In this document: one piece after another, positions 13,603 to 36,440 of the stretch
How the letters are laid out: every line of letters starts with the position of its first letter
Position numbering within the stretch: the first letter of the stretch is position 1
Origin: Deltaproteobacteria bacterium
GTDB taxonomy: Bacteria > Myxococcota > Myxococcia > Myxococcales > SZAS-1
Direction of reading: 5' to 3'
Length of the DNA stretch: 64,000 bases
Assembly (NCBI GenBank): GCA_018266075.1
Contig: JAFEBB010000036.1
Coordinates: 1-64,000 of the forward strand
Position numbers and translations under genes: made by a program
Notes under the pieces: model-generated
What the model was told of the DNA's origin: nothing
Databases searched by the model: none
Seen by the model: the letters and a program-made list of their open reading frames with translations, nothing else

Positions 13603-14133
13603 CTACGAGCCGCAGGTCGGGAAAGGCGCGCCCGGCAGCGCCACCCGGCCACTGGGCGTGAGGCCACCGCCGATGGGCGCGGGGGGCACGCAGGTGGTGG
13701 GATCCGGCGGCTGGTGACAGCCGTTGCAGCCGACGCCCTTCCCGGGCACGCCGGAGCCGTAGATCATCGCGGGCGTGGGCTGGGTGAGCATCCCGGCGTC
13801 CGCGCCCTGGTACTCGATGCTGACCGTGAGCGGCGGCGTCAGCGGCTCGGCGGTGTAGAAGTTGCCCGCCTCGTTGGTCACCAGGGTGATGCCGGCGTCG
13901 AGGGCGTCGACGATCATCACGTGCACGCCCGAGACGCCCGCGCCCGCAGGGCTGTCATACGCGGGGTAGATGGTGCCCGCCGCCGTCCACGGCAACGCCC
14001 GCGCCGTGCAGGTGTCGTCGGTGGTGCAGTGGCACTGCATGCAGTCCTGCCCGGGGTTCATGGTGGGCTTGTTGGTGGGGTCGCAGCCCAAAAGGCCCAG
14101 CACCAACGCCGTCGCGGAGAAGATCCGAAGCAT
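13603..14133 (-). CDS. Lipoprotein with two CXXCH c-type haem motifs
   Basis: 176 residues. Lipobox LLGC with Cys17. Two covalent-haem motifs are present: CMQCH (residues 31-35) and CNGCH (136-140), separated by a beta-rich region (about 45-125) that resembles a carboxypeptidase-like or transthyretin-type sandwich. Probably an anchored periplasmic or surface electron carrier. It is the last gene of a three-gene operon, 3 bases after the membrane gene. Axial ligands beyond the two His are not evident. If haem is not attached, the pairs could simply be disulfides. Confidence 0.75.
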   Translation of the reverse strand: MLRIFSATALVLGLLGCDPTNKPTMNPGQDCMQCHCTTDDTCTARALPWTAAGTIYPAYDSPAGAGVSGVHVMIVDALDAGITLVTNEAGNFYTAEPLTPPLTVSIEYQGADAGMLTQPTPAMIYGSGVPGKGVGCNGCHQPPDPTTCVPPAPIGGGLTPSGRVALPGAPFPTCGS

Positions 14134-14136
14134 GGC

Positions 14137-14997
14137 TCAGAAGAGGAACGCGCTCGCGCCGGCGCTCATGAAGACCAGCGTGGAGAAGCCGATGATCTGG
14201 TGCGCCTGGGCGATCGACTTCTGGTTGGTGTAGCCCTCGCGGCTGGCGGTGTACACGCCCAGGCCCAGCTCGCTCATCATCCCCAGCGTGGCCGCGCCCA
14301 TGCAGAGCTTGTGGGCCAGCGTGGTGTCCGCCTTCACCGGCTTGTCGTACGGCACCGGCGCGAAGAGCCCGAGCATGCCCGTGGCCGCAAATCCGCCCAG
14401 GGTGGCGAAGGCGAGCACGGTGTGCGGCGCCTCCCACTTGGCGCTGTTGCTCGGCGCGCTGCCGGCAAACTTGTCCATGTAGTTGAGCTGGCCCACCAGC
14501 ACCGTGGCCGCGAGCAGGCCCAGCGTGGCCAGGCCGGCAGTCTGGTGGATGGTGAGCGTGGTGCGACGCACCTCGGCGTCGTGCGCGATGGCCAGCTCGG
14601 CGGCGCTGCGCTCGCGCGGCTTGCTCTCGCCGAGGAGGTCGAAGTTCATGTCGCCGCCGGAGCTGGAGCTCGACGATGAGGCCGCGGGCACGTCCTTGAC
14701 CACCGGCGCGGGCGACACGGACGGCGACTCCGGTTCGGGCGCGCTGCTGTCCGGCGAGGGCGAGGTGCCCAGATCCGGCGCGGGCGTGGAGGTGTCCGGC
14801 GTGGGCGCGGGCGCGGGCTTCTTCTTCTTCTTCTTCGTCTTCGCGTCCACGAGGTCCGGCATGAGCTGCAGCTGCGGCGCCGCGCCCTCGGGCATGAGGT
14901 GCAGCACCGGCTGGTACTCGGCGTGGGCCGTCTTGGGCACGGCGAGCGCGATCACCAGCCCCGCCACCACCGCGCCCCGCAGGGTGAACCGAATCAT
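14137..14997 (-). CDS. Four-helix membrane protein with one His per helix, cytochrome b561-like
   Basis: 286 residues. Signal peptide, Lys-rich then Pro/Ser-rich periplasmic region (about 50-115), and four membrane helices in the last half. Each helix begins with or contains one His: His151, His192, His229 and His266, spaced like the haem b ligands of cytochrome b561/DUF4405-type proteins. I therefore infer a di-haem membrane electron carrier. It lies 10 bases after a YceI gene, as in the E. coli yceJ-yceI pair, where YceJ is a b561 homologue, and 3 bases before a CXXCH lipoprotein. A haem-free role remains possible. Confidence 0.65.
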   Translation of the reverse strand: MIRFTLRGAVVAGLVIALAVPKTAHAEYQPVLHLMPEGAAPQLQLMPDLVDAKTKKKKKKPAPAPTPDTSTPAPDLGTSPSPDSSAPEPESPSVSPAPVVKDVPAASSSSSSSGGDMNFDLLGESKPRERSAAELAIAHDAEVRRTTLTIHQTAGLATLGLLAATVLVGQLNYMDKFAGSAPSNSAKWEAPHTVLAFATLGGFAATGMLGLFAPVPYDKPVKADTTLAHKLCMGAATLGMMSELGLGVYTASREGYTNQKSIAQAHQIIGFSTLVFMSAGASAFLF

Positions 14998-15007
14998 GTG
15001 GGCGGGC

Positions 15008-15571
15008 CTACTTCGCGAACTGGAGGTCGGCCGTGATGTGGCAGGCGTCGTCGATCTTCACGAACATCAGGCTGGGGCGGTCGACCTTGTAGCCGTCGAG
15101 GCTCACGTCGAACTCGGTGGTGGCGTGCGCCTTGTCCGCCGACTCGAAGTCGATGGTGACCGGGATCTTGATGGGGTTGGTCTGGCCGTGGAAGGTGAGC
15201 TGGCCCTCGAGCGTGCCCTGCGCCTTGCCCGGGAACTTGGCTGGCACCGCCAGGCCCTTCACCACGCCCTTCAAGGTGACGTCGGGGTACTTCGCCTCCT
15301 CGACGGTCTCCTTCATGTGCGCGTCGCGGTTGGCGTTGCCGGAGTCGAAGTCGGCCACGTTGGCGCGGATCTGCACCTGGGCATCGTTGCCCTTGAGCGC
15401 CGCGGCGCCCTGGAGCTTCTTGTCCACGCCCACGGACTCGTGGAACTTGTGGACGACCTTGTAGCTCAGCGACGACTTGCTCGGATCCAGCTTGTAGACG
15501 CCGTCGGCGTGGGCCGAGAGCGGGAGGCTGATCGAGGACAGCGCGACAACGACGGCAAGCAGCTTCTTCAT
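15008..15571 (-). CDS. YceI-family periplasmic lipid-binding protein
   Basis: 187 residues with a clear signal peptide (ends at AHA) and a YceI domain: KLDPSKSSLSYKVVHKFHESV, then LTFHGQTNPIKIPV and a C-terminal KIDDACHIT segment. YceI proteins are lipocalin-like barrels that bind polyisoprenoid or quinone-like lipids. First gene of an operon with a b561-like protein and a CXXCH lipoprotein, so it may carry a quinone-type lipid for that unit; this is inference. A second, signal-free YceI is encoded at 35421-35951. Confidence 0.9.
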   Translation of the reverse strand: MKKLLAVVVALSSISLPLSAHADGVYKLDPSKSSLSYKVVHKFHESVGVDKKLQGAAALKGNDAQVQIRANVADFDSGNANRDAHMKETVEEAKYPDVTLKGVVKGLAVPAKFPGKAQGTLEGQLTFHGQTNPIKIPVTIDFESADKAHATTEFDVSLDGYKVDRPSLMFVKIDDACHITADLQFAK

Positions 15572-18216: not shown

Positions 18217-18362
18217 GCCCAGCTCCTCAAGAGGCCATGCATTTCAGCCAATTGGGGCGCGGTCTGCAATGTAGGCAGAGCGCGCATCGGACAAACGGGT
18301 CGCGCGTTGTAGTGTCGGGGAAGAGGCCGCGTCTGGGACCCGTGTCCACCACCCGTGTCACC

Positions 18363-18890
18363 ATGGAGGGCGTCTCCGCCGAGGAGGCGCGCGAGCTGGT
18401 CGACCGGCACCGCGCGCCTGTGTACCGGGTAGCCCTGCGCATGCTGGGCGACGCCCACGAGGCCGAGGACGTGACCCAGGAAGTGCTGCTCCAGCTCTGC
18501 CGCACCCGCGCCAGCCTCAAGCCCGGCAGCGACGAGGGCGCCTGGGCGTACTCCATCGCCATCAACCGCTGCCGCGACATCCTCCGCTCGCACCGCCACA
18601 AGATGCTCGCCCTGGCGCCCATCGAAGAGCTCGACGGCGAGGACCTCCGCCCCACCCAGGACCTGGCGCTCGACCAGGCCCGCCGCGAGCGCCAGGTGCA
18701 GGAGGCGCTGCAGCTCCTGCCCGCGAGCTACCGCGAAGTGCTCGTGCTTCGCGACTTGGAAGGTCAGCCCTACCGCCGCATGTGCGAGGTGCTGAAGCTG
18801 TCGGAGACGAACTTGAAGGCCCGGGTGATCCGCGCGCGCCGCGCCCTGGCCCGGGTGCTCGTGGCCGAAAACGCGGAGGACGAACAGTGA
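18363..18890 (+). CDS. ECF-type RNA polymerase sigma factor
   Basis: 175 residues from ATG 18363; GTG at 18342 would add seven residues. Region 2 (about 10-75) includes MLGDAHEAEDVTQEVLLQLC and region 4 (about 110-170) includes LPASYREVLVLRDLEGQPYRRM and the helix-turn-helix. ECF sigmas direct RNA polymerase to a small regulon and are held by an anti-sigma factor. The next gene, overlapping by GTGA, encodes that partner. The divergent barrel operon is its most likely target. No -35/-10 pair of ECF type could be defined with confidence. Confidence 0.9.
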   Translation: MEGVSAEEARELVDRHRAPVYRVALRMLGDAHEAEDVTQEVLLQLCRTRASLKPGSDEGAWAYSIAINRCRDILRSHRHKMLALAPIEELDGEDLRPTQDLALDQARRERQVQEALQLLPASYREVLVLRDLEGQPYRRMCEVLKLSETNLKARVIRARRALARVLVAENAEDEQ

Positions 18891-35420: not shown

Positions 35421-35951
35421 CTACTTCGCGAGCACCGCGCTGACCTCGAGGTCGATGTCGACCTTCTCGCCGACGAGCACGCCGCCGGCCTCGAGGGCCT
35501 GGTTCCACTTCAGGCCGTAGTCGGTGCGGTTCAGGCTGCCGCGCGCGGTGAAGGCCAGGCGCTGGTTACCCCAGGGATCCTTGCCGCCGCCCTCGCGGCT
35601 CACGTCGAGGGTGACCTCCTTGGTCACGCCGTGCAGCGTGAGATCGCCGACCAGCTTGAAGCTGTCGCCCTTGCCTTCGACGCGCTTGCTCACGAAGGTG
35701 AGCTTGGGAAACTTCTCCACGTCGAAGAAGTCGGGGCTCTTGAGGTGGCCGTCGCGCTTGGGCTCGTGGGTGTTGATGCTGGCCACGTCGATCTCCGCCT
35801 TCACCAAGCTCTTGCTCGCGTCGTCGTCATCCACGGTGATGGCGCCGCTGAACGCGCCAAACGAGCCGCGCACCTTGGCGATCATCATGTGCCGCACCGA
35901 GAAGTTCACGCCCGAGTGCGAGGGATCGATGTTCCAGGTCTGGGTCGACAT
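35421..35951 (-). CDS. YceI family protein without signal peptide
   Basis: 176 residues of the YceI lipocalin-like family: WNIDPSHSGVNFSVRHMMIAKVRGSF, then PDFFDVEKFPKLTF and LTLHGVTKEVTLD. Unlike the copy at 15008, it starts without a signal peptide, so it is likely cytoplasmic. It is divergent from an HxlR regulator 138 bases away, a common pairing that suggests regulation by redox or electrophile stress. Confidence 0.9.
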   Translation of the reverse strand: MSTQTWNIDPSHSGVNFSVRHMMIAKVRGSFGAFSGAITVDDDDASKSLVKAEIDVASINTHEPKRDGHLKSPDFFDVEKFPKLTFVSKRVEGKGDSFKLVGDLTLHGVTKEVTLDVSREGGGKDPWGNQRLAFTARGSLNRTDYGLKWNQALEAGGVLVGEKVDIDLEVSAVLAK

Positions 35952-36002
35952 ATGTGTGCCTCCGAAAGGCCGCCCCACACGCGGGGCCGGCGAATGGGCC
36001 AA

Positions 36003-36031
36003 GGCATAACCGCGCAGCTTTTCTTTCGCAA
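36003..36031 (-). promoter_or_regulatory. Candidate promoter for the YceI gene
   Basis: On the minus strand TTGCGA (36031-36026) and TATGCC (36008-36003) are 17 bases apart, upstream of the start at 35951. An AAAAGTAAG segment at 36041-36049 could be a regulator site. Tentative. Confidence 0.35.
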
Positions 36032-36089
36032 GCCGCTTCTCAAAAGTAAGCACTGCGGCGCCGCCGACGTGCCGCGTATATTGGTGGAG

Positions 36090-36440
36090 ATGACCATGAA
36101 GCGCGCCACCGACATCTGCCCCCGCTTCGAGGCTGCGGCCGAGCTCCTGGGCAAGCGCTGGACGGGGCTGCTCGTGCAGCAGCTCCTGGCCGGGCCGCGC
36201 CGGTTCTCGGAGCTGGCGTCGGCGATCCAGGTGAGCGAGCGGGTGCTCTCGGAGCGGCTGAAGGAGCTCGAGGACGCCGGCGTGGTGGTGCGCAAGGTGC
36301 ACCCCGAGCCGCCGGTGCGCGTGGAGTACCGGCTCACGCCCAAGGGCGAGGCGCTCTCCGTGGTCGTGAACGCGATCGGCGAATGGGCGAACCGCTGGGT
36401 CGAGCCCAAGCCGGCCCGCGCGCGCAAGAAGACCGCTTAA
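36090..36440 (+). CDS. HxlR family transcriptional regulator
   Basis: 116 residues with the winged helix (about 15-95): CPRFEAAAELLGKRWTGLLV, FSELASAIQVSERVLSERLKELEDAGVV. The Cys near the N-terminus (DICPRF, Cys10) fits the sensing Cys of YodB/HypR-type members that respond to quinones and electrophiles. Divergent from a YceI gene. An ATG at 36096 is an alternative start. Confidence 0.9.
   Translation: MTMKRATDICPRFEAAAELLGKRWTGLLVQQLLAGPRRFSELASAIQVSERVLSERLKELEDAGVVVRKVHPEPPVRVEYRLTPKGEALSVVVNAIGEWANRWVEPKPARARKKTA

Follow-up and report, generated by a model that had tools for sequence, protein, structure and literature searches.

A conserved YceI-linked envelope gene unit of Myxococcota with an interchangeable candidate electron carrier

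The DNA analyzed here (the window) comprises positions 1 to 64,000 of contig JAFEBB010000036.1 of assembly GCA_018266075.1, from a Deltaproteobacteria bacterium assigned to the Myxococcota, and contains a compact operon encoding a YceI-family lipocalin, a membrane protein with four conserved histidines (the four-His protein) and a lipoprotein with two CXXCH motifs (the di-CXXCH lipoprotein). The three genes follow one another in this order on the minus strand with spacers of 10 and 3 bases; a preliminary description made from the sequence had recognized this tight cluster, with which our coordinates agree, and the strand is added here. The features of the operon are as follows.

15008..15571, minus strand: YceI-family lipocalin of 187 amino acids with a Sec-type signal sequence (PF04264 match, alignment of 27 family members)
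15440..15451, minus strand: HKFH (His41 and His44), the HxxH motif of operon-linked YceI (invariant in 27 of 27)
14137..14997, minus strand: four-His protein of 286 amino acids (AlphaFold2 model, 90-row alignment, signal sequences of relatives)
14545..14547, minus strand: His151 codon, helix 1, proposed periplasmic-side haem ligand (90 of 90)
14422..14424, minus strand: His192 codon, helix 2, proposed cytoplasmic-side haem ligand (90 of 90)
14311..14313, minus strand: His229 codon, helix 3, proposed partner of His151 (90 of 90)
14200..14202, minus strand: His266 codon, helix 4, proposed partner of His192 (89 of 90, one gap)
13603..14133, minus strand: di-CXXCH lipoprotein of 176 amino acids (alignments, beta core in the model, fold comparison, fusion at locus L074)
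14029..14043, minus strand: CMQCH, first proposed c-haem site (CXXCH in 14 of 14 operon-linked orthologues)
13714..13728, minus strand: CNGCH, second proposed c-haem site (CXXCH in 13 of 14 operon-linked orthologues, absent from that of L144)

The four-His protein was found in 29 of 40 related genomes, at 37 places of which a weak one (G026:C282) was not taken further, and when 193 genomes of the phylum were searched with a profile it was detected in 86, all but three of them in the window's order. Profiles of four proteins were used to score 96 loci, to which the first search contributed 35, the second search and a lipoprotein search together 60, and the window one; a gene was considered linked when co-directional with the four-His gene and within 2.5 kb of it. 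Ninety loci with four-His matches at E < 1e-40 were kept, excluding L151 and L152 (no four-His match) and L147 to L150 (weak matches). At the genome level the four-His set comprised 82 genomes, after exclusion of the weak-match genomes G007, G074, G175 and G180; genomes were assigned a lipoprotein at E 4.4e-44 or better, with the addition of G188 (linked, weaker), and the remainder of the 193 were counted as having no match. Clustering of neighboring genes rested on a crude gene caller, which misnamed some frames, and a minority of the clusters were identified.

The YceI assignment made in the preliminary description was borne out by a match spanning the entire PF04264 profile (positions 1 to 150 of 150, 72.3 bits against a cut-off of 23.7, E 7.2e-20), and in hhalign the operon YceI family aligned to E. 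coli YceI with a probability of 94. Chance linkage to the four-His gene was rejected, a YceI gene lying alongside it under the above definition in 80 of the 90 loci. The lipocalin is predicted to bind a quinone. The HxxH motif was retained in nearly all of the 82 operon-linked YceI copies (two were truncated and, of the others, that of L151 alone lacked the first histidine), and it is a possible metal or haem site near the barrel. The window's genome has eight YceI matches altogether; five of the seven others were readable and have no HxxH at that spot. One YceI gene of ordinary type lies within the window itself (35421-36302, minus strand, PF04264 score 181.9 bits).

The four-His protein is composed of a signal sequence (AHA/E), a proline-rich spacer, an NFDLL motif and a four-helix transmembrane bundle, across most of which the AlphaFold2 model had a predicted local distance difference test (pLDDT) score above 90. 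The predicted helices span residues 132-178, 189-211, 225-252 and 259-285, and each contains one of His151, His192, His229 and His266, in agreement with what had been read from the sequence. Poor conservation of these residues had been named beforehand as a result that would refute the proposal; in the alignment of 90 homologues the first three were kept in every row and His266 in 89, the sole exception being a gap in L065, whose reading frame is broken. The pair Arg144-Arg145 was likewise present in 90/90. Four conserved histidines, one per helix and pairable, fit two bis-histidine b haems, and it is from this sequence pattern that we infer haem binding. A signal sequence was recognized in 62 of the 90 homologues by a crude rule demanding a methionine start, so the N-terminus of the protein would lie outside. 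In an up-down bundle, the histidines of helices 1 and 3 and those of helices 2 and 4 are predicted to occupy opposite faces, and an external N-terminus would thus put His151 and His229 on the periplasmic side and the other pair, His192 and His266, on the cytoplasmic side, as judged from the helix limits of the model. A periplasmic partner might dock at a conserved DFDLL-like motif (NFDLL in the window, residues ~118-122), which lies after the spacer and before helix 1.

As described previously, the third gene encodes a lipoprotein with CMQCH (residues 31-35) and CNGCH (136-140); its start is lipobox-like (LLGC), with Cys17 invariant across the family alignment, and the two CXXCH sites flank a beta domain of the carboxypeptidase-regulatory or transthyretin-like type. 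Pfam gave just a weak match to a carboxypeptidase regulatory-like domain, no relative was found among Protein Data Bank (PDB) sequences, and Foldseek returned no match at E 0.001 for a model that was poor overall (mean pLDDT 65.9) with only its beta core usable. That core matched carboxypeptidase D regulatory and transthyretin-like chains with Z ~6-6.5, the top row reaching 7.1. Among the 14 operon-linked lipoproteins, the first CXXCH was kept in 14 and the second in 13. The lipoprotein is likely to carry c-type haem because, beyond this conservation, an orthologue in an Anaeromyxobacter metagenome-assembled genome (L074, 9064-10611) carries, as a fusion, a long array made up of CXXCH and CX4CH motifs, a paralogue of the domain occurs within a five-CXXCH protein of the window's genome (G000:C63; L186, 1998-3623), family members match cytochrome profiles weakly (Cytochrome_C7 in 5/13, Paired_CXXCH_1 in 4/13), and cytochrome c assembly genes (PF01578, over the cut-off) occur in that genome at four places on three contigs. 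Met25 and Met115, nearly invariant (90% or more of 13 alignment rows), could from their conservation be distal haem ligands. A variant second site, CNRPTNGSGCH, has eight residues between its cysteines and accompanies an intact first CXXCH (L078, 1983-2366; L144, 2101-2460).

The di-CXXCH lipoprotein is one of two alternative occupants of the third position. Neighbor clustering revealed that loci without it often bear another exported protein directly after the four-His or YceI gene, with a twin-arginine-like start and an invariant cysteine at the lipobox position. All ten aligned members of this family matched the Rieske profile PF00355, and 62 of 64 co-directional copies contained two Rieske motifs. 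The Rieske domains carry CTHxxC...CPCH boxes, which resemble those of high-potential Rieske proteins. By the co-directional definition the Rieske lipoprotein accompanies the four-His gene in 64/90 loci and the di-CXXCH lipoprotein in 13/90; the latter figure becomes 14/90 with L057, where the gene lies on the other strand. The view of the third gene as an addition, taken in the preliminary description, misses the alternatives in its slot. With genes on both strands counted, the lipoprotein is the sole carrier in 14 loci and the Rieske protein in 63, while 12 have neither and one has both (Fisher p 1.4e-8). The difference from the co-directional counts is due to L057 and to L055, the locus with both carriers, whose CXXCH protein has a divergent sequence and the opposite orientation. 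The same pattern was found across the 82 four-His genomes, with 68 having only the Rieske gene, 11 only a CXXCH orthologue, one both and two neither. Carriers without a four-His gene were restricted to one of 70 genomes for the Rieske gene (G032, at a contig start) and one of 13 for the CXXCH orthologue (G007, with only a weak four-His relative). The window's genome had no Rieske gene of the operon type, its matches being partial and at E 4e-15 or weaker. Incomplete arrangements also occur: the four-His and YceI genes have no carrier nearby in 7/90 loci, the four-His gene and lipoprotein lack YceI in L036, L045 and L048, and in G049 YceI and the lipoprotein lie together with the four-His gene on a different contig (L151 and L146). 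In G013, G029, G182 and G185 no carrier adjoins the four-His locus and a Rieske gene lies elsewhere in the genome, indicating that the unit can be split.

The best explanation, to which we assign a probability of about 0.62, is that the three genes constitute one envelope redox unit with an interchangeable carrier. The gene order, the residue conservation, the co-occurrence of the parts and the mutual replacement of the third are observed, and the replacement of one one-electron carrier by another, unrelated one with a different cofactor, in the same slot and beside the same two partners, argues most strongly for electron transfer. The four-His protein would span the inner membrane, its N-terminus facing outward, and hold two b haems, one near each face (His151/His229 on the periplasmic side, His192/His266 on the cytoplasmic side), relaying electrons between the periplasm and the quinone pool of the membrane. 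The YceI barrel would hold an isoprenoid quinone and act as the lipid-phase partner, and the third protein would be a lipid-anchored one-electron carrier, a two-haem c-type lipoprotein here and a Rieske [2Fe-2S] protein, mostly with two domains, in most relatives. The carrier may either feed electrons in or take them out, and the data fit both. The preliminary description had proposed a path from lipid to haem b to haem c; that order is unreadable from sequence and is one of two possibilities, the authors who described the LcoA-BcnA pair of Burkholderia cenocepacia having proposed the opposite step, in which the cytochrome b561 LcoA reduces a quinone bound to the YceI lipocalin BcnA (Naguib et al. 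2022, PMC9113575). Our preferred interpretation is that the unit is a relative or analogue of this defence against lipid peroxyl radicals with a carrier added. Its likeliest use would be to keep the YceI-bound quinone in reduced form for the quenching of lipid peroxyl radicals, as proposed for LcoA-BcnA, although we hold this antioxidant role, taken alone, only tentatively and at rather less than even odds.

Several observations weigh against this interpretation, the first group concerning the carriers. The lipoprotein of L144 lacks the second CXXCH, and neither carrier was detected in two of the 82 four-His genomes at the thresholds used, or nearby in 12 of the 90 loci. Carrier exclusion also tracks clades, so that the Fisher values overstate the independence of loci and genomes: in a quick tree, the Rieske and lipoprotein loci largely form two groups and two label changes suffice when loci with neither are ignored, and the window itself sits on a long branch whose placement is weak. 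The second group concerns the membrane protein. One of the four histidines is missing from each of its weak homologues L148, L149 and L150, in an alignment made by eye. Its scores of 17.9 bits against PF01292 (cut-off 30.1), which we take to be the family of YceJ and LcoA, and of 14.6 bits against PF03188 (cut-off 23) fall below both curated cut-offs, and plain membership in either family was rejected. Its profile gave no match against E. coli YceJ alone, and its match to PF01292 proteins is no stronger than suggestive: against 25 sequences (24 from related, mostly myxobacterial genomes, plus E. coli YceJ) the comparison reached a probability of 68.7 (E 4.5e-5, 109 columns; reversed controls 1.3 and 2.4), with His151 and His229 aligned opposite histidines of that set.

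Among individual four-His relatives, E 0.01 was reached by just 4/36 for PF01292 and by 6/36 for PF03188 (best 0.0011), and a PF03188 search of 30 related genomes gave no match, its controls giving none either, which makes that search uninformative. No relative was found among PDB sequences, Foldseek returned no match for the model at E 0.001, and the VIA-align matches, at Z 11-15, were helical bundles of a generic kind. Among them, the designed two-haem protein 4D2 (7ah0; Z 13.2, root-mean-square deviation 1.9, 104 aligned) and cytochrome b6 (7r0w_A; Z 12.1, root-mean-square deviation 3.3, 130 aligned) scored like the other bundles, for which such values are common, so these model-based matches lend weak support to a two-haem fold. 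No cytochrome b561 entry was among the best 50 VIA-align matches listed, and a b561 fold remains compatible with the model. The four-His protein is thus best called a b561-like or analogous putative two-haem bundle, one that falls outside the b561 families by their curated cut-offs. L148, L149 and L150 could be one-haem or degenerate forms, and the match in L147 is truncated by a contig end.

The Rieske domains also bring to mind a small quinol-oxidizing unit, similar to cytochromes bc1 and b6f in parts and not in descent, in which the bundle would oxidize quinol, YceI would supply or remove the quinone, and electrons would exit through the carrier to terminal oxidases, other cytochromes or extracellular acceptors. 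The CTHxxC...CPCH boxes of the Rieske carriers, the fusion of the CXXCH carrier to a multi-CXXCH array in L074 and the paralogous domain in the five-CXXCH protein of the window's genome would all suit such a role. On the other side, the recurrent neighbor clusters that were identified, within the limits of the gene caller, are the Rieske protein, sigma factors and a few unrelated proteins, with no oxidase or conduit among them, and the four-His protein has no relative among PDB sequences; we regard this account as improbable. Slightly less so, though still unlikely, is a further proposal in which a four-helix two-haem membrane protein not descended from known cytochromes b, a dedicated YceI quinone shuttle and a periplasmic slot for either a two-domain Rieske lipoprotein or a two-haem c-type lipoprotein form a minimal quinone:carrier unit, so far seen in Myxococcota; if true, bc-like envelope complexes would gain a class not described before.

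An extracytoplasmic function (ECF)-type sigma factor gene lies in the window at 18237-18890 (plus strand), ~2.7 kb from the YceI start, and neighbor clustering placed sigma factors of related type near the four-His gene in L034, L035, L037 and L060. In L042, L043, L044 and L046 an opposite-strand gene pair is inserted within the operon between the four-His and YceI genes, encoding a protein with sigma-70 region 2 and a second protein with a CPAC motif, which may be an anti-sigma factor; Pfam, run on L044 among the four loci, gave a DUF4384 match below the cut-off for the latter. The presence of ECF-type sigma factor genes near the operon in several genomes, and the separation of the four-His and YceI genes by such a pair, would suit an account without electron transfer, in which the histidines and CXXCH motifs serve a sensory or structural purpose by binding metals or haem and co-regulation is all that joins the genes. 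If the two lipoproteins had no redox role in common, it would be difficult to see why a Rieske protein takes the place of a di-CXXCH protein at one and the same position, and we consider this account very unlikely.

At lower coordinates the operon is adjoined by genes for a metallophosphatase and a PPC-domain protein on the opposite strand. Adjacent genes for secreted proteins would be in keeping with an outward flow of electrons to oxidoreductases that are secreted or at the cell surface. Such a flow has been proposed for Cellvibrio japonicus Cbp2D, in which a YceI-like ubiquinone-8 domain (X158) is joined to X183/X132 c-type cytochrome domains, one of which reduced lytic polysaccharide monooxygenases in vitro, so that a YceI domain and CXXCH motifs in one protein have a published precedent (PMC8981238). 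In our case the two neighboring genes are on the other strand and belong to no recurrent cluster, and the lipid anchors of the carriers suggest a membrane-bound role, making this possibility likewise a very slim one. A reading of the operon as an anti-phage defence was rejected, PADLOC having given no match.

YceI lipocalins and their b561 neighbors are widespread. A lineage that supplies the pair with a dedicated one-electron carrier, in two unrelated types that interchange, offers a direct handle on the route by which electrons enter or exit such pairs, and the swap is in effect a natural experiment in which one redox cofactor is exchanged for another in a fixed unit. A search of open-licence literature found no description of this unit with its carriers.

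Of the systems that the unit recalls, cytochromes bc1 and b6f share only the parts list, a two-b-haem bundle with a Rieske protein and a c-type cytochrome. Cytochrome b has its four haem ligands on two helices, whereas the four-His protein has one on each of four; nor do these complexes have a counterpart of YceI, and no sequence relative of the bundle was found among PDB chains. Eukaryotic cytochrome b561 (PF03188) has four helices in succession with one histidine apiece, paired between helices 1 and 3 and between helices 2 and 4. This layout is shared by the four-His protein with its proposed pairs, which differs in lacking the two extra helices of that family and in falling below its cut-off. 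Cbp2D also combines a YceI-type quinone-binding domain with CXXCH cytochrome domains, but in a single multidomain protein with a carbohydrate-binding module, and the term 'b561' is absent from the main text of PMC8981238. E. coli yceJ-yceI pairs YceI with a membrane partner gene; its use as a precedent in the preliminary description was fair, and LcoA-BcnA is its published counterpart in function. The four-His protein is no ordinary YceJ, by both its Pfam score and its profile comparison. According to PMC9113575, B. cenocepacia mutants in BcnA or in the linked LcoA undergo more lipid peroxidation, and b561 and YceI are fused in most of the Alphaproteobacteria named there; the main text of that paper gave no match for 'Rieske', 'cytochrome c' or 'Myxococc'. 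The present operon resembles LcoA-BcnA in encoding, beside a YceI lipocalin, a membrane protein with conserved histidines suited to two b haems, a linkage found in 80 of the 90 loci, and differs from it in a membrane protein that scores below the b561 cut-off and has one histidine per helix, a signal sequence and a spacer, in a YceI with an HxxH motif, and in the addition of a one-electron carrier lipoprotein. The operon is genuine and conserved, a variation on the b561-YceI theme in which the carrier is interchangeable.

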